Assembly: GCF_015910535.1 (NCBI RefSeq)
Contig: NZ_JACBJG010000014.1
Coordinates: 1 to 64,000, forward strand
Length of the DNA: 64,000 nucleotides
DNA from: Saccharomonospora sp. NB11
Lineage (GTDB): Bacteria > Actinomycetota > Actinomycetes > Mycobacteriales > Pseudonocardiaceae
Direction of reading: 5' to 3'
Under the pieces are notes generated by a model. That model had not been told where the DNA came from and did no database searches. It saw nothing but the letters and a program-made list of their open reading frames with translations. A program made the position numbers and the translations under genes. Position 1 is the first letter of the stretch, and every line of letters starts with the position of its first letter. Below are positions 3,557 through 25,422 of this stretch, in pieces.

Positions 3557-4213
3557 GTGACTTCAGCGCCTTCAGTGTCTTCGGTGCCGTCGGTCGTCAT
3601 CCTCGACTACGGTTCCGGCAACCTCCGCTCCGCCGAGCGCGCCCTGCAACGCACCGGCGCGCACGTCGAGGTGACCTCGGACCCGAAGGCGGCCGTGGAG
3701 GCCGACGGGCTCGTCGTGCCCGGGGTCGGTGCCTTCGCGGCCTGCATGGAGGGCCTGCTGGAGGTCGGCGGCCACCGGATCATCGGCAAGCGGCTCGCCG
3801 GTGGGCGGCCCGTGCTGGGCATCTGCGTCGGCATGCAGATCCTCTTCGAACGCGGTGTCGAGCACGACGTCGAGGCCGAGGGGGTCGGCGAGTGGCCGGG
3901 CACCGTCGAGCGGCTCGACGCCGACGTGCTGCCGCACATGGGCTGGAACACCGTGCGAGCGCCCGAGGATTCGGAGTTGTTCGCGGGACTCGACCCGGAC
4001 ACGCGCTTCTACTTCGTGCACTCCTACGCCGTGCGGCGTTGGGAACTGGAGTCGGAACTGCCCGGCGCGCAACCGAAGGTCACCACCGCGCACCACGGGG
4101 AGGAGTTCGTGGCCGCGGTCGAGAACGGTCCGCTGTGGGCCACGCAGTTCCACCCGGAGAAGTCCGGCGACGCCGGGGCGCACATCCTCAAGAACTGGGT
4201 CCAGACCCTCTGA
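3557..4213 (+). CDS. hisH: Imidazole glycerol phosphate synthase, glutaminase subunit
   Basis: A 218-residue class I glutamine amidotransferase. The nucleophile is Cys90 in GICVGMQ, and the His/Glu of the triad are His199 and Glu201 in FHPEKS. HisH releases ammonia from glutamine and channels it to HisF, which forms imidazole glycerol phosphate and AICAR in histidine synthesis. Its partner HisF is encoded 3.3 kb downstream at 7493. Start is GTG. The next gene, priA, follows after 35 bases with its own -10 box. Confidence 0.96.
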
Positions 4214-4236
4214 ATCCGTTCCGGCCCACCGGTTCC

Positions 4237-4242
4237 TATAGT
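4237..4242 (+). promoter_or_regulatory. -10 box of priA (leaderless)
   Basis: TATAGT ends exactly six bases before the priA GTG at 4249, so transcription would start at or next to the start codon. This is the best-conserved of the leaderless boxes seen here. Confidence 0.5.
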
Positions 4243-4248
4243 GGCCGG

Positions 4249-4980
4249 GTGAGCTTCACACTACTTCCCGCCGTGGACGTGGCCGACGGACAAGCCGTAC
4301 GTCTGGTGCAGGGCGAGGCAGGGACCGAGACCTCGTACGGATCGCCGCTGGAGGCGGCGCTGGCCTGGCAGCGTGACGGCGCGGAGTGGATCCATCTGGT
4401 GGACCTCGACGCCGCGTTCGGCAAGGGCTCCAACCGCGAGCTCCTGGCGGAGGTCGTGGGCAGGCTTGACGTGAACGTGGAGCTGTCCGGTGGCATCCGC
4501 GACGACGAGTCGCTGGCCGCCGCACTGTCCACCGGGGCGCGCCGCGTGAACCTCGGGACGGCGGCGCTGGAGGACCCGGAGTGGAGCGCCCGCGTGGTCG
4601 CGACGCACGGTGACCGGGTCGCGATCGGCCTCGACGTCCGTATCACCGAGCAGGGACACCGGCTCGCGGCGCGAGGCTGGACCAAGGACGGTGGCGACCT
4701 GTGGGAGACGCTGGAGCGGCTCGACCGCGACGGCGCCCAGCGCTACGTCGTCACCGACGTGAGCAAGGACGGCACTCTGCGCGGGCCGAACCTCGACCTG
4801 CTTCGTGAGGTCACCGCCCGCACCGATGCGGCCATCATCGCGTCGGGTGGAGTGTCCAGCCTCGACGACCTGCGGGCGCTGGCGGCGCTGAGCAGCGACG
4901 GCGTCGAGGGCTCGATCGTGGGCAAGGCGTTGTACGCCGGTGCCTTCACCCTTCCCGAGGCGCTCGCGGCCGTGGCTTGA
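4249..4980 (+). CDS. priA: Bifunctional HisA/TrpF isomerase (PriA)
   Basis: A 243-residue (beta/alpha)8 barrel. The catalytic Asp10 and Asp170 are present. So are Arg142 and Trp144 in loop 5 (ARGWTKDGG), the pair that lets actinobacterial PriA accept both ProFAR (histidine pathway, HisA reaction) and PRA (tryptophan pathway, TrpF reaction). The window contains trpE, trpC, trpB and trpA but no trpF, consistent with this enzyme doing both jobs. The start is GTG behind TATAGT. The 3' end of the gene is the first unit of the tandem repeat that follows. Confidence 0.95.
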
Positions 4981-5080
4981 TTGGCCGTTCACGGCCGTGG
5001 CCTGATTGGCCGTTCACGGCCGTGGCTTGATTGGCCGTTCACGGCCGTGGCTGGTTTGGCCGCTCGCGGCCGTGGCCTGA
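4956..5080. repeat. 25-bp tandem repeat grown from the priA 3' end
   Basis: Five head-to-tail 25-base units start at 4956, 4981, 5006, 5031 and 5056. The first is the last 25 bases of priA including its TGA. The following copies read TTGGCCGTTCACGGCC then GTGGC(C/T)TGA. The last copy carries the priA-like CGCTCGCGGCC form. Each middle copy holds a perfect hairpin, GGCCGT-TC-ACGGCC. The array separates priA from a convergent reductase gene and may act as a stack of small stem-loops at the transcript end. Confidence 0.85.
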
Positions 5081-18884: not shown

Positions 18885-18956
18885 GGTCGCGCTCATCCGC
18901 GGGCCATGGTCGTCCCGTGCCGGCACGAGTGCAGCACGACGACGCAGGAGGTCCCC

Positions 18957-21900
18957 TTGATCTTCTCCGCGACCCCCGAGAGCCAGGGCCTCTATCGACC
19001 CGAGTCGGAGAGGGACGCCTGTGGCGTGGCGATGGTCGCCCACGTCCGGGGTGTTCGGTCCCACGACATCGTGAGCGACGGTCTCACCGCGCTCACCAAT
19101 CTCGATCACCGCGGAGCCGCGGGTGCGGAGCCCACCAGCGGTGACGGCGCGGGAATTTTGGTGCAACTGCCGGACTCGCTCATCCGGGCCACGGTCGACT
19201 TCCCGCTGCCCGAGCCGACCGACGACGGTGACCACCGTTACGCGGCGGGGCTGGCGTTCCTGCCGACCGAGGAGGACGTACGGGCCCGCGCTGTCGAGCT
19301 GATCGAGCGCATCGCCCGCGAGGAGAACCTGACCGTTCTCGGCTGGCGCGCCGTACCCACGGACCCGGACGCGGCCGACGTCGGGCCGACGGCACGGTCG
19401 GTGATGCCGCACGTGGCCATGCTCGTCGTGGCCGAGGCGGCCGACGCCGCCGAGGACGGCGGACGGGCCGGTCTCGACCTCGACCGGCTCGCGTTCTGCC
19501 TGCGCAAGCGGGCCGAGCACGAGAGCGTCGCCGCAGGTTGCGGGGTGTACTTCCCGTCGTTGTCGTCCCGGACGCTCGTCTACAAGGGGATGCTCACCCC
19601 GGTCCAGTTGCCGTTGTTCTTCCCCGACCTCCGCGACGAGCGGCTCACGAGTGCCATCGCTCTGGTGCACAGCCGGTTCTCGACCAACACGTTCCCCTCG
19701 TGGCCACTGGCCCACCCGTTCCGGTTCGTCGCCCACAACGGGGAGATCAACACAATCCGGGGCAACCGCAACCGGATGCGCTCGCGGGAGGCGTTGCTGG
19801 CCTCCGACCTGATCCCTGGTGATTTGAGTCGCCTGTACCCCGTGTGTTCACCGGACGGCTCCGACTCGGCGTCGTTCGACGAGGTGCTCGAACTGCTGCA
19901 CCTCGGGGGCCGAAGCCTGCCGCACGCCGTGTTGATGATGATCCCCGAGGCGTGGGAGAACCACACGACGATGGACCCGGCCCGGCGGGCGTTCTACCAG
20001 TTCCACGCGAGTCTCATGGAGCCGTGGGACGGGCCCGCGTGCGTGACGTTCACCGACGGGTCCCTGGTCGGGGCGGTGCTCGACCGCAACGGGCTGCGGC
20101 CGGCGCGGTGGTGGCGTACTGCCGACGACCGTGTCGTCTTCGCCAGCGAGAGTGGCGTGCTCGACGTGCCTCCGGACCGGGTTGTGGCGAAGGGCCGACT
20201 CAAGCCGGGACGCATGTTCTGTGTGGACACCGTCGCGGGCCGCGTCGTCGAGGACGACGAGATCAAGGCGGAGCTGGCCGCGCAGGCTCCCTATGCCGAG
20301 TGGCTGGCCGCGGGGCTGCTGCCGGTGGACAGCCTGCCCGAGCGGGAGCCGGTCACCCAAAGCCACGCCTCGGTGCGGCGCAGGCAGCTCGTCTTCGGCT
20401 ACACCGAGGAAGAGCTGAAGATCCTCCTGGCCCCGATGGCTCTCAAGGGGGCCGAACCCGTCGGGTCGATGGGGTCGGACACGCCTCCGTCGGTGCTGTC
20501 GAAGCGGTCGAGGCTGCTCTACGACTACTTCAAGCAGGGATTCGCGCAGGTCACCAACCCGCCGCTCGACACCATCCGCGAGGAACTGGTCACGTCGATG
20601 AGCCGGGTGATGGGGCCGGAGGAGAACCTGCTCGCGCCGGGGCCGGCGTCGTGTCGGCAGCTCCAGCTCGACTCGCCCGTCATCGACAACGAGCAGCTCG
20701 CCAAGCTCGTCCACGTCGCCGACGACGGCGAGCACTCCGACTTCGCGTGTGCCGTCCTCTCCGGACTGTTCGAGGTGGATGGTGGTGGACAGGCGCTCGC
20801 CGAGGCGATCACGCGGGTGCGGCAGGAGGCGTCGGAGGCCATCGCCGCGGGGGCGCGCACCCTCGTGCTCTCCGACCGCGACTCCGACCACAGGATGGCT
20901 CCCATCCCGTCGTTGCTGCTGGTCTCCGCGGTTCACCACCACCTCGTACGGACCAAGGAACGGCTGCGGGTGGCGCTCGTGGTGGAGACGGGTGACGCGC
21001 GCGAGGTCCATCACGTGGCGCTGCTGCTCGGGTACGGCGCGGCGGCCGTGAACCCGTACCTGGCGTTCGAGTCGATCGAGAACCTGCTGGCGCGCGGCGA
21101 CCTCGACGGGATCGAGCCTCGCGCCGCCGTGCGCAACTACGTCACGGCGCTCGGCAAGGGCGTCCTGAAGATCATGTCCAAGATGGGCATCTCGACCGTC
21201 GGTGCCTACACCGGCGCGCAGGTGTTCGAAGCCCTCGGCCTCTCGCAGGACGTCCTCGACGAGTACTTCACCGGCACCGTCTCCACGCTGGACGGCGTGG
21301 GACTCGACGTGCTCGCCGAGGAAGTGGCGGTGCGGCACCGACGCGCCTATCCGGACAACCCCGCCGAGCACGCCCACCGGGGCTTGGAGAGCGGTGGCCA
21401 CTACGCCTACCGGCGGGACGGGGAACTGCACCTGTTCACCCCGGAGACCGTGTTCCTGCTGCAACACGCGACGAAGTCGCGTCGCGAGGAGGTGTACCGC
21501 CGCTACGTCGACGAGGTGAACCGGCTCAATCGGGAGGGCGGTGTGCTGCGCGGGCTGTTCTCCCTGCGGGAGGGCGTTCGCGAACCCGTGCCGATTGAGG
21601 AGGTCGAGTCGGTGGAGTCGATCTGCCGCCGCTTCAACACCGGCGGCATGTCGTACGGCTCGTTGTCCAGCGAGGCACACGAGACGCTCGCGATCGCGAT
21701 GAACACGATCGGGGGCCGCTCCAACTCGGGCGAGGGCGGTGAGGACGCGGATCGGCTGCACGACCCGTTGCGGCGCAGCGCGGTGAAGCAGGTCGCGAGC
21801 GGGCGGTTCGGGGTCACGAGCGAGTACCTGGTCAGCGCCGACGACATCCAGATCAAGATGGCGCAGGGTGCCAAGCCCGGCGAGGGCGGACAACTGCCGC

Positions 21901-23546
21901 CGAACAAGGTGTACCCGTGGATCGCGAAGACCCGGCACTCCACACCCGGGGTGGGCCTGATCTCGCCGCCTCCGCACCACGACATCTACTCGATCGAGGA
22001 CCTCGCCCAGCTCATCCACGACCTCAAGAACGCCAACGAGCACGCCCGGATCAACGTCAAGCTCGTGAGTTCCTTCGGGGTGGGCACCGTGGCCGCGGGG
22101 GTCTCGAAGGCCCACGCCGACGTGGTGCTGATCTCCGGCCACGACGGTGGCACGGGGGCCGCACCCATGAACTCGTTGAAGCACGCGGGGACACCGTGGG
22201 AGATCGGGCTCGCCGAGACGCAGCAGACGTTGCTGTTGAACGGATTGCGTGACCGCATCACGGTGCAGGTCGACGGCGGCTTGAAGACCGGTCGGGACGT
22301 CGTCGTGGCGGCGTTGCTCGGCGCCGAGGAGTACGGCTTCGCGACGGCCCCGCTGGTGGTCGCGGGCTGCGTCATGATGCGGGTGTGTCACCTGGACACC
22401 TGTCCCGTCGGGGTCGCGACGCAGAACCCCGCGCTGCGCGAGCGGTACACCGGACAGGCCGAGCACGTGGTGAACTACTTCCGGTTCGTGGCGCAGGAGG
22501 TGCGGGAGTACCTGGCGCGACTGGGTTTCCGGTCGCTGGACGAGATGATCGGGCACGCCGACCTGCTTGACGTCGACGAGGCGGTGCAGCACTGGAAGGC
22601 CGCAGGACTCGATCTGTCGCCGATCTTCGAGGTCCCGGCCGACCCCGTCGCGGGCCCCCAGCACGGCGGTGCGCGACGCAAGGTCCGCGATCAGGACCAT
22701 GGGTTGGACCAGGCGTTGGACCGCACACTCGTGCAGCTCGCCGAGGCGGCGCTGCAGGACGCGCGTCCGGTGCGCCTCGACCTGCCGGTGCGCAACGTCA
22801 ACCGCACCGTCGGCACGATGCTCGGGTCCGAGGTCACCCGCCGCTACGGCAGCGCGGGACTGCCCGACGACACCATCCACGTGCGACTCACCGGGTCGGC
22901 AGGGCAGTCGCTCGGCGCCTTCCTGCCGCCGGGGGTGACGCTGGACCTCGTGGGCGACGCCAACGACTACGTCGGCAAGGGGCTCTCGGGCGGGCGCATC
23001 GTGGTGCGGCCCCACCCGGACGCCTCGTACGCCGCGCAGGACCAGGTGATCGCGGGCAACACGATCGCCTACGGGGCCACGTCGGGTGAGCTGTTCCTGC
23101 GCGGGCAGGTCGGGGAACGTTTCGGGGTGCGCAACTCGGGCGCCCTGTTGGTCGCCGAGGGCGTGGGTGACCACGCGTTCGAGTACATGACCGGGGGCCG
23201 CGCCGTGGTGCTGGGCGGCACCGGCCGCAACGTCGCCGCGGGCATGTCGGGCGGCATCGCGTACGTGCTCCGGCTGCACGAGGCCGACCTCAACCGCGCG
23301 ATGGTGGAGGTCGAGCCCCTGGACGGCGACGACGCGGCCTGGCTACGGGACGTCGTGGAGAGGCACCACCGCCTGACGGGTTCGACGGTCGCGGCGTGGT
23401 TGCTCGACGACTGGGAGCGCCGGGCGGAGGCGTTCACGAAGGTGATGCCGAAGGACTACCGCCGTGTGCTGGAGGCCGCGGAGCGGGCGAAGGCGCAGGG
23501 GCGAGATGTGGACGAAGTGGTCATGGAGGAGGCGTCGCGTGGCTGA
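18957..23546 (+). CDS. gltB: Glutamate synthase, large subunit
   Basis: A 1529-residue alpha subunit of NADPH-GOGAT, which converts 2-oxoglutarate and glutamine to two glutamates with GltD. A short propeptide precedes the N-terminal nucleophile Cys22 ([15 protein letters not shown]). The central and FMN-binding synthase domain follows, with the 3Fe-4S loop in [15 protein letters not shown] and a GXGXG beta-helix at the C terminus ([21 protein letters not shown]). TTG at 18957 is chosen for its AGGAGG site at 18946-18951. The gene ends inside the first unit of the 75/76-bp repeat array that leads to gltD. Confidence 0.95.
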
Positions 23547-23697
23547 GACTTGTGGTGCAGCTGGGCGCGCCGACCGGGTGCGGGTGTCCCGCAAGGTACA
23601 GAGGAGGCGTCGCGTGGCTGACAATCGTTGGGCGGCTTCGCGCGCCGACCGGGTGCGGGTGTTCCCGCATGACACAGAGGAGGCGTCGCGTGGCTGA
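23539..23697 (+). CDS. Repeat-encoded mini-ORF 1 (52 aa)
   Basis: It starts at the GTG that overlaps the gltB stop (GTGGCTGA) behind AGGAGG and spans one A and one B repeat unit. It ends in the same overlap structure at the third block. The peptide is Arg-rich (about 13 Arg, including an RRRR run) and ends EEASRG like GltB itself. No known family. It may be translated only to carry ribosomes towards gltD. Confidence 0.4.
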
Positions 23698-23848
23698 GAC
23701 TTGTGGTGCAGCTGGGCGCGCCGACCGGGTGCGGGTGTCCCGCATGACACGGAGGAGGCGTCGCGTGGCTGACAATCGTTGGGCGGCTTCGCGCGCCGAC
23801 CGGGTGCGGGTGTTCCCGCATGACACAGAGGAGGCGTCGCGTGGCTGA
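23690..23848 (+). CDS. Repeat-encoded mini-ORF 2 (52 aa)
   Basis: A near-copy of mini-ORF 1 spanning the second A and B units, with the same AGGAGG, GTG start and overlapping TGA. Differences are confined to a few residues (for example SRMTRRRRR instead of SRKVQRRRR). Its start overlaps the stop of mini-ORF 1 and its stop overlaps the start of mini-ORF 3. Confidence 0.4.
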   Translation: MAETCGAAGRADRVRVSRMTRRRRRVADNRWAASRADRVRVFPHDTEEASRG

Positions 23849-23924
23849 GACTTGTGGTGCAGCTGGGCGCGCCGACCGGGTGCGGGTGTTCCCGCATGAC
23901 ACAGAGGAGGCGTCGCGTGGCTGA
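23841..23924 (+). CDS. Repeat-encoded mini-ORF 3 (27 aa)
   Basis: It spans the final hybrid A' unit, which has an A-type 5' part and a B-type 3' part and is 76 bp long, so its frame closes after one unit. Its TGA overlaps the gltD GTG exactly as the gltB stop overlaps mini-ORF 1. It completes an unbroken chain of stop/start overlaps from gltB to gltD. Confidence 0.4.
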   Translation: MAETCGAAGRADRVRVFPHDTEEASRG

Positions 23925-25422
23925 CCCCAAGGGCTTTCTGCGGTACAGCCGCGTCGAGCGGCCCAAGCGTCCGCGTGAGGAACGGATCGGCGACTGGCAC
24001 GAGGTGTACGCCGACACCGATCCGGTGGAACGGGACCGTGCCGTGTCGACTCAGGCGACGCGGTGCATGGACTGTGGTGTCCCGTTCTGCCACTCGGGCA
24101 GCGCCGGCTGTCCGTTGGGCAACCTGATTCCGGAGTGGAACGACCTGGTGCGGCGGGGAGAGTGGTTCCGGGCGTCGGAGCGCCTGCACGCCACCAACAA
24201 CTTCCCGGAGTTCACGGGGAAGTTGTGTCCCGCGCCGTGTGAGGCGGCGTGTGTGCTGGCGATCTCCCCGGACTCGGGTGGTGCTGTCACCATCAAGCGG
24301 GTCGAGGAGGCCATCGCCGCACATGCGTGGGAGGCCGGGCACGTCCCCGTGGCCCAGGCCGTGTCCTCGACGGGGCACACGGTGGCCGTGGTGGGCTCCG
24401 GTCCCGCCGGACTGGCGGCGGCGCAGCAGCTCACGCGCGCCGGGCACGAGGTGACCGTCTTCGAGCGGGACGACCGGCTCGGCGGACTTCTCCGGTACGG
24501 CATTCCCGAGTTCAAGATGGAGAAGCACGTGCTCGACCGCAGGCTCGCGCAGTTGCGGGAGGAGGGCACCACGTTCGTCACGGGATGCGAGGTCGGGGTG
24601 GACGTCACCGTGGACGAGCTGAAGGAGCGGTTCGACGCGGTGGTGCTCGCGGTCGGCGTGTTGCGGGGGCGTGACGACACGGCCACGCCGGGACGTCACC
24701 TGGACGGCATCCACCTCGCGATGGAGCACCTCGTGGCCGCCAACCGGGAGTGCGAGGGTGACGGGCCGGCGGAGGTGCACGCGCGGGACAAGCACGTCGT
24801 CGTCATCGGGGGCGGGGACACGGGTGCCGACTGCTACGGCACGGCGATCCGCCAGGGCGCGCTGTCGGTGACCCAGCTCGACCGGTATCCGCAGCCACCG
24901 TCCACACGGGACGACGAGGTCTCGCCGTGGCCGGTGTGGCCGTACGTGTTGCGGACGTATCCCGCGCACGAGGAGGCCGGACAACGTCGTTTCGCCGTGG
25001 CCGTGCAGCGGTTCGTCGGCGACGACGACGGTCATGTCCGCGAGATCGAGCTGCGGGAGGTGGAGGTGCGCAAGGACCCGGAGACGGGTCGGCGCGAGGT
25101 GGTCCCCACCAGCGACGAGGTCGAGCGGCTGCCCGCCGACCTCGTGTTGCTCGCGATCGGCTTCGAGGGTGTGGAGCCGATGCCGCTGCTGGACGGGCTC
25201 GGGTTGTCGTTGACGGGGCGGGGCACGGTCTCGTGCGGTGCGGACTGGCAGACGCAGGCACCGGGGGTGTTCGTCTGCGGTGACGCCCATCGCGGCGCGT
25301 CGCTGGTGGTCTGGGCCATCGCCGAAGGCCGCTCGGCCGCCAGGGCGGTGGACGAGTACCTGACGGGGTCGTCCGAGTTGCCCGCACCGGTGCATCCCAC
25401 GGCGTTGCCGTTGGCGGTCTGA
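23917..25422 (+). CDS. gltD: Glutamate synthase, small subunit
   Basis: A 501-residue beta subunit that oxidises NADPH and passes electrons through FAD and Fe-S clusters to GltB. The N-terminal cysteine-rich segment (CMDCGVPFCHSGSAGCP and LCPAPCEAACV) binds 4Fe-4S clusters. A GSGPAGLAAA FAD site follows near residue 162 and a GGGDTGADC NADPH site near 297. The start GTG (MADPKGFLRYSR) lies in the sixth copy of the junction repeat, behind AGGAGG. A hairpin shortly after the stop may end the operon. Confidence 0.95.
   Translation: MADPKGFLRYSRVERPKRPREERIGDWHEVYADTDPVERDRAVSTQATRCMDCGVPFCHSGSAGCPLGNLIPEWNDLVRRGEWFRASERLHATNNFPEFTGKLCPAPCEAACVLAISPDSGGAVTIKRVEEAIAAHAWEAGHVPVAQAVSSTGHTVAVVGSGPAGLAAAQQLTRAGHEVTVFERDDRLGGLLRYGIPEFKMEKHVLDRRLAQLREEGTTFVTGCEVGVDVTVDELKERFDAVVLAVGVLRGRDDTATPGRHLDGIHLAMEHLVAANRECEGDGPAEVHARDKHVVVIGGGDTGADCYGTAIRQGALSVTQLDRYPQPPSTRDDEVSPWPVWPYVLRTYPAHEEAGQRRFAVAVQRFVGDDDGHVREIELREVEVRKDPETGRREVVPTSDEVERLPADLVLLAIGFEGVEPMPLLDGLGLSLTGRGTVSCGADWQTQAPGVFVCGDAHRGASLVVWAIAEGRSAARAVDEYLTGSSELPAPVHPTALPLAV

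Follow-up and report, generated by a model that had tools for sequence, protein, structure and literature searches.

A probable MIRU-like insertion element at stop/start junctions of actinobacterial operons, with a hairpin arm matched to the start region of each locus

A repeat array between gltB and gltD

The window, i.e., the whole 64,000-nt stretch of DNA analysed here, carries the genes of both glutamate synthase subunits on its forward strand. The 3' end of gltB lies at 23546 (NCBIfam match to the large subunit, 1628 bits) and gltD starts at 23917 (small subunit, 607 bits). Between them, a block consisting of ribosome site and start region (GAGGAGGCGTCGCGTGGCTGA) occurs six times, starting at 23526, 23601, 23677, 23752, 23828 and 23904 and hence at spacings of 75, 76, 75, 76 and 76 nt; the array received a TRF score of 763. 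Read from the GTG at 23539, it consists of three leader ORFs of 52, 52 and 27 codons, the TGA of each overlapping the next GTG (23690, 23841, 23917), with the final stop 5 nt into gltD. All five units reveal a GCGGG..CCCGC hairpin ahead of the next ribosome site, its loop being TGT in the first and third units and TGTT in the other three. The units follow each other as A-B-A-B-hybrid, the fifth combining the left half of A with the core of B. The original prediction had described the six-fold overlap with its spacings (23526-23904), the leader ORFs with their stop/start overlaps, the hairpins and the order of the units, and all of this was confirmed.

The features of the locus are as follows:

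18906..23546, + strand: gltB, glutamate synthase large subunit; its TGA (23544-23546) lies within the first start-region copy
23526..23546, + strand: T1, the first copy of ribosome site and start region (GAGGAGGCGTCGCGTGGCTGA), overlapping the gltB stop
23531..23571, + strand: hairpin of unit 1, with arms at 23531-23545 and 23558-23571 (CAGCTGGGCGCGCC); 13 of 14 positions paired, one bulge allowed
23531-23545, + strand: hairpin arm of unit 1 spanning the Shine-Dalgarno end through the GTG start
23572..23592, + strand: core of unit 1 (GACCGGGTGCGGGTGTCCCGC), with the GCGGG/CCCGC hairpin at 23580-23592
23601..23676, + strand: unit 2, type B, 76 nt; arm 23633-23646, core from 23647 with TGTT loop
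23677..23751, + strand: unit 3, type A, 75 nt; arm 23709-23722, core 23723-23743
23752..23827, + strand: unit 4, type B, 76 nt; arm 23784-23797, core from 23798
23828..23903, + strand: unit 5, left half of A and core of B, 76 nt; arm 23860-23873, core from 23874
23904..23924, + strand: final copy of ribosome site and start region, ahead of gltD
23539..23697, + strand: leader ORF 1, 52 codons; its stop overlaps the start of leader ORF 2
23690..23848, + strand: leader ORF 2, 52 codons
23841..23924, + strand: leader ORF 3, 27 codons; its stop lies 5 nt inside gltD
23917..25422, + strand: gltD, glutamate synthase small subunit

With up to three mismatches, the core was found in the window at five places in the array and at one place elsewhere, while 0.02 are expected from shuffled sequence; together with the TRF score, this dismisses chance as the source of the repeats. 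The Rfam 15 covariance models gave no match up to E=1 between 18800 and 25500, and a known RNA family was thus ruled out as the identity of the array. The window holds a second tandem repeat of 4.6 copies of 25 nt (CGGCCGTGGCTTGATTGGCCGTTCA) at 4967-5080, which begins at the end of an ORF at 3892-4980.

Dispersal, empty sites and copy number

When the six-fold block was searched against the rest of the genome, an insert of about 50 nt with the core GACCGGGTGCGGGTGTCCCGC proved to be dispersed, being present at five gene junctions of the host genome. Using the core GCCGACCGGGTGCGGGTGTCCCGC and up to three mismatches, we obtained 13 matches at six places, while the reversed-pattern control gave 0. 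These places are gltB|gltD twice, pyrB|pyrC, lysA|hom, permease|permease and one without a recognised junction; the names pyrB|pyrC and lysA|hom were confirmed by NCBIfam, the permease pair and the second gltB|gltD being named by eye. The genome possesses two gltB-gltD operons (G000:C6 and G000:C27), and the element is found in both, with five units and one unit. The copy away from a recognised gene junction (L006, G000:C3:10520-10586) displays a matched stem and a changed core.

Allowing two mismatches, the insert is present in 12 of 12 genomes of the genus. A scan of named genomes revealed the exact core in other actinobacteria as well, in at least 120 stretches; the 80 listed include Amycolatopsis, Nocardia, Saccharopolyspora, Prauserella, Skermania, Actinokineospora, Streptoalloteichus and others, as well as Myceligenerans and Antribacter, both Micrococcales. 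Among 200 genomes of the order, it occurred in 11, all from the window's family (11 of 29 there), and in none of the 171 outside that family. A covariance model scored above 40 bits only in the window's family and in one genus of another family, in a draw of 121 genomes with stricter filters. The element thus occurs in the window's family, which is probably Pseudonocardiaceae, in Nocardia and in a few others. NCBIfam named both neighbours in nine of ten pairs checked, namely pyrB|pyrC, lysA|hom, nuoE|nuoF, trpB|trpA, carA|carB, sdhA|sdhB, pheS|pheT, pta|ackA and rimM|trmD, and only the downstream gene, phosphoribosyl-AMP cyclohydrolase, in the tenth; the ten had been chosen for a recognisable downstream gene and are uninformative on frequencies. 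Carriage by phages or plasmids was rejected, as the exact core had 0 matches in viral contigs and one unit searched against plasmids had no match.

Several forms of the core were seen. In a long form, TGCGG is replaced by about 30-45 nt resembling an extra hairpin (TTGGGCCCCCGCTGCGGC...GCCGCAGCAGGGGAGG); it occurs at gltB|gltD (L189, L190, L192, L193, L205 and L208), at the permease junction (L003) and at several lysA|hom loci, and short and long units are mixed inside single arrays. At two gltB|gltD junctions (L219 in G223 and L210 in G155), the core holds an inverted piece of itself (GCGGGACACCCGCACCCGG type), with the phase kept. In a metagenome-assembled genome of Pseudonocardiaceae (L124:4422-4600), the core stands alone: it is repeated seven times in tandem, with a period of about 24 nt and no start regions.

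A comparison of the first gltB|gltD junction between related genomes, one per species, was possible in eight of the 12 genomes of the genus, the other four giving no match. The unit number ranges from 0 to 5 between species (G000, the host, 5; G001, G010 and G011, 3 each; G002 and G007, 2 each; G003, 1; G008, 0), and the phase is kept despite the differing lengths. As had been suggested initially, the unit number might set the GltB:GltD ratio, and it might vary between strains of a species. The second gltB|gltD pair is empty in G001, G007 and G008. The lysA|hom junction is empty in three of the 12 genomes (G003, G006 and G008) and filled in seven, with a remnant alone in G001 and a row for G009 that is not interpretable. 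Empty junctions consist of the plain overlap alone (GTGGCTGA, ATGGCTGA or GTGA). Compared by eye, the filled junction G000b shows 19 nt of the empty G001b (GGAGGTGGCCAATGGCTGA) duplicated around the insert, and at lysA|hom about 24 nt are duplicated in the filled G005 relative to the empty G006. Taking values above the 95th percentile of mismatched pairs as clear, we found the duplication between the first and the last start region in 72 of 133 arrays and in 41 of the 82 arrays with a single unit; the arrays without it have diverged or formed otherwise.

In G004b, G005b and G006b (L197, L196 and L198), a decayed unit with no recognisable core lies between gltB and gltD, and by eye the following gltD looks uncoupled, seemingly with its own ribosome site. 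Coupling appears to be dispensable, judging from these apparently uncoupled gltD genes and from the remnant at lysA|hom of G001.

These data bear on the origin of the array. Initially, the native gltB|gltD overlap had been proposed to have expanded in tandem at this site only, by unequal recombination. As far as the growth in copy number is concerned, this proposal stands, since the A-B-A-B-hybrid order and the near-exact repeats show that the copy number changed by recombination or slippage. As an origin, however, it is very unlikely and is refuted by the dispersed insert, which is not derived from the native junction and is found at five junctions of the host genome and in many genera, while empty junctions hold the overlap only. 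Tandem growth is secondary. The window comes from a 29-contig draft, in which the true number of units may differ from the apparent five and an assembly artefact might be suspected, but five genomes of one or two contigs each (G001, G002, G003, G010 and G011) carry one to three units at the same junction, and an artefact is barely conceivable.

Reading phase and the start-matched arm

The survey set comprised 133 arrays, each with one to seven cores; the units that could be measured are 68-86 nt long. In 110 arrays the first core is preceded, at a distance of 20-44 nt and hence about at arm 1, by the stop of an ORF of 120 codons or more. In 121 such an upstream ORF ends within the array zone taken more widely, 107 possess a downstream ORF with its start, and 99 have both flanking ORFs on the same strand. 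Among 219 distinct units, 130 were measurable, the 89 dropped being without a measurable duplication and start. In 86 of the 130, the stop of the leader falls on the next start; another 39 leaders run into that start in frame, and five do neither, two of these five belonging to L004, where the start was mis-assigned (ORF 1475-1687 overlaps hom at 1684). The path is thus kept in 125 of the 130 units and, counted by array, in 96 of the 100 that could be measured, where two thirds are expected by phase alone (p=6.6e-13, a value that is too small as orthologues are still in the array set).

We examined 46 gltD loci. All 14 core-bearing gltB|gltD junctions studied, the decayed G004b, G005b and G006b being outside this test, contain an unbroken chain (13 by script, one by eye). 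Across the 13 scripted junctions the leader ORFs vary from 26 to 96 codons, with the final leader stop at the same gltD position every time. The phase is conserved across arrays, and stop/start coupling through mini-ORFs, as originally predicted for the window, extends to these 14 junctions and to the 96 arrays.

The leader peptides themselves had also been suspected to be functional. The core is most often read in a frame encoding ADRVRVSR (95 of 130 units), as might be expected of a functional peptide, but the other two frames, giving unrelated peptides, account for 35 units (27 and 8), and the leaders differ greatly in length at gltB|gltD. Because the core is read in three frames, functional peptides were rejected as a general rule, and we regard them as extremely unlikely.

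Immediately ahead of the core lie 12-14 nt that are complementary to the end of the Shine-Dalgarno and to the start region of the very locus in which the unit sits. Over 216 cores, tandem and orthologous copies included, the median arm score was 28 for the own locus versus 17 for the arm of another locus. After thinning to 106 units, scored with G·U and A·C weighted alike, the values were 19 versus 11.5, and 63% of the units exceeded the 95th percentile of the control. In the units at gltB|gltD and lysA|hom, 12-14 of 14 positions pair while the sequences vary between species; these are best fits with one bulge allowed and without a control, and three rows caught unrelated GACCGG-like sites.

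Strong covariation points in the same direction. In 13 regular loci, picked by eye from 18 of one geometry, standard pairs make up 95.5% of the stem cells, two-sided changes occur in nine of 12 pairs, and the covariation amounts to 0.499 versus 0.195 for shuffled and at most 0.088 for slid partners. For all 18 loci, including two without a start-region stem, 86.6% of the stem cells are paired, 11 of 12 pairs display two-sided changes, and the covariation is 0.468 versus 0.156 (shuffled) and at most 0.103 (slid). RNAalifold recovered the same stem unaided in the 13 loci, with the first GG of the Shine-Dalgarno also paired with the CC of the core, and a similar stem in 20 loci of a second geometry. 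The core hairpin is invariant in the loci compared, which were picked by their core.

Among the 82 better stems, the ratio of G·U to A·C was 78:19, higher than both the 529:333 of mismatched loci (p=1e-4) and the 40:24 of the best among these (p=0.01); over all 106 stems it was 99:39 (p=0.011 against the 529:333 of mismatched loci). This excess of G·U over A·C is moderate evidence that selection acts on the sense RNA, as opposed to copying at the DNA level alone.

Hairpins between operon genes may also serve mRNA processing or stability, as REP elements do, in which case the open frames would be incidental. Each unit indeed has two hairpins, one of them, the core hairpin, being invariant in the loci compared by core, but neither the kept phase in 96 of 100 measurable arrays nor a hairpin built on the start region is expected of such a stabiliser, and this explanation is unlikely.

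A further possibility is a translation-gated switch, in which the arm pairs with either the leader start or the gene start and the downstream gene stays closed until the leader has been translated. Computed folding speaks in part for it. Across the 75 junctions with one measurable unit, the arm formed 7.0 pairs with the gene's own start and 3.5 with that of the leader, and the access computed for the gene's ribosome site was 0.264, down from 0.369 in the joined empty site (p=2e-6). Swapping in the arm of another locus raised the computed access from 0.295 to 0.359, and with a ribosome on the leader start from 0.269 to 0.362. Lower access and gene-start pairing in these models suggest a possible gating effect. 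The computed effects are modest, however, and gene-start pairing may be a by-product of sequence identity. Where the two starts differ, moreover, the arm follows the leader start: it fits the leader's start better in 67 cases and the gene's in 22, with 51 ties, and in clear cases the count is 42 to 2 (148 of 216 units after thinning, 8 weak stems left out). The conservation of the arm with the leader start speaks against gating as its main role, and the switch seems rather improbable to us. Pairing between the arm and the gene start is likewise disfavoured as a maintained structure, even though computed folding favours it; the computed gene-start pairing contradicts the leader-start preference drawn from conservation.

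Proposed mode of action and relation to known repeats

Most probably, then, the array belongs to a dispersed, MIRU-like insertion element that sits inside operons, where the path of the ribosome is kept via leaders and the start is enclosed in a hairpin. Several observations weigh against this reading: the whole array folds no more stably than shuffled sequence (z -0.81), computed pairing prefers the gene start to the leader start, the duplication is clear in only 72 of 133 arrays, and coupling appears to be dispensable. What can be read from the sequence is a dispersed insert with empty sites, a phased path, a hairpin covarying locus by locus, and tandem units in varying number. A unit consists of arm 1 (the Shine-Dalgarno and start of the locus), a loop, the complementary arm and the conserved core hairpin, followed by the Shine-Dalgarno and start that serve the downstream gene. 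The dispersal and the empty sites suggest mobility: the element would spread by insertion, often duplicating about 19-24 nt that span ribosome site and start.

Such an insert may be tolerated because ribosomes coming from the upstream gene would translate the short leader and then be handed to the downstream gene; translation across the insert would also avoid a long untranslated stretch. The hairpin would hide the ribosome site and start of the leader and be opened mainly by ribosomes arriving from upstream. At gltB|gltD, we infer that ribosomes end gltB at 23544-23546, inside the hairpin, re-start at 23539 and traverse three leaders, i.e., five units, to reach gltD at 23917, while the hairpin would make fresh initiation on the leaders unlikely.

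More speculatively, and with considerable doubt, the element might re-make its arm for each target. On landing at a start codon, it would gain an inverted copy of the ribosome site and start, either by copying during insertion or by later hairpin-templated correction, and each copy would become a made-to-measure RNA lock opened only by ribosomes from the upstream gene.

The element makes it testable whether a repeat can spread by translational neutrality, and whether hairpins at start codons enforce strict translational coupling of enzyme subunits, the pairs concerned being gltB/gltD here and pheS/pheT, carA/carB, trpB/trpA, nuoE/nuoF and sdhA/sdhB elsewhere. For gene calling, start sites at such junctions could be off by one or more units.

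REP, ERIC and BOX elements are small, dispersed, hairpin-forming intergenic palindromes, and REP hairpins between operon genes act in mRNA processing or stability. The present element resembles them in its small size, its dispersal and its hairpins, but differs in lying on the stop/start overlap, in its open frame throughout and in the phase that is kept. It shares the overlap itself with ordinary stop/start coupling (ATGA, GTGGCTGA; PMC12548453), in that the same overlap forms the border of the unit and is used directly at empty junctions; unlike ordinary coupling, the element has several copies of the overlap, separated by a leader ORF and a hairpin.

The closest likeness is to the mycobacterial interspersed repetitive units (MIRUs), reportedly described by Supply et al. 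in 1997. Mycobacterial copies were fetched with a MIRU motif, one of them lying at what is presumably the senX3-regX3 junction. MIRUs are described as mobile: they enter genes at the start codon and bring an ORF of their own that is coupled to the gene (PMC12548453). They measure 40-100 bp, and M. tuberculosis has them at 41 locations, of which 12 vary (PMC2734929). Both elements are short repeats at operon junctions, single or in tandem, and both enter at a start codon with the internal ORF of the unit coupled to the gene (PMC12548453), a likeness that is drawn here from sequence alone. Shorter and longer forms exist in both. Where MIRUs measure 40-100 nt and are dispersed, single or tandem, the present element has units of 68-86 nt and one to seven cores per array, and where they occupy operon junctions on the stop/start overlap, it does so in 110 of 133 arrays. 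The original statement that no such element had been described was therefore too strong, MIRUs being a described analogue, although the open-access literature (PMC), searched with sequence words included, contained no description that we could find of the present element itself.

Homology to MIRUs was rejected, as a covariance model (R1) run on 19 mycobacterial loci gave no convincing match; the sensitivity is limited, since R1 was built on 13 sequences and finds two of the five units of the window, so that distant homology could escape. Its one match with E below 0.01 is probably due to chance and runs from the MIRU border into the gene. The MIRU motif was restricted to one genus, in 8 of 200 genomes of the order. 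As judged by eye, MIRU copies mostly bring a common Shine-Dalgarno stretch (GAGGAGGAGCGGCGC-like) before the gene, unlike the present element, whose ribosome site is locus-specific and, in the 72 of 133 arrays with clear duplication, a copy of the upstream one. The start-matched arm likewise belongs to the present element, none having been noticed in MIRUs by eye. What the two have in common is the strategy; they differ in sequence, and a locus-specific ribosome site and a matched arm set the present element apart, so we do not file it as a MIRU. What is new is the hairpin arm complementary to each locus's own start region, which to our knowledge occurs in no other such element. It looks like a second element, with no sequence relation detected, that follows the MIRU strategy of inserting into the stop/start overlap of an operon and leaving the operon intact.
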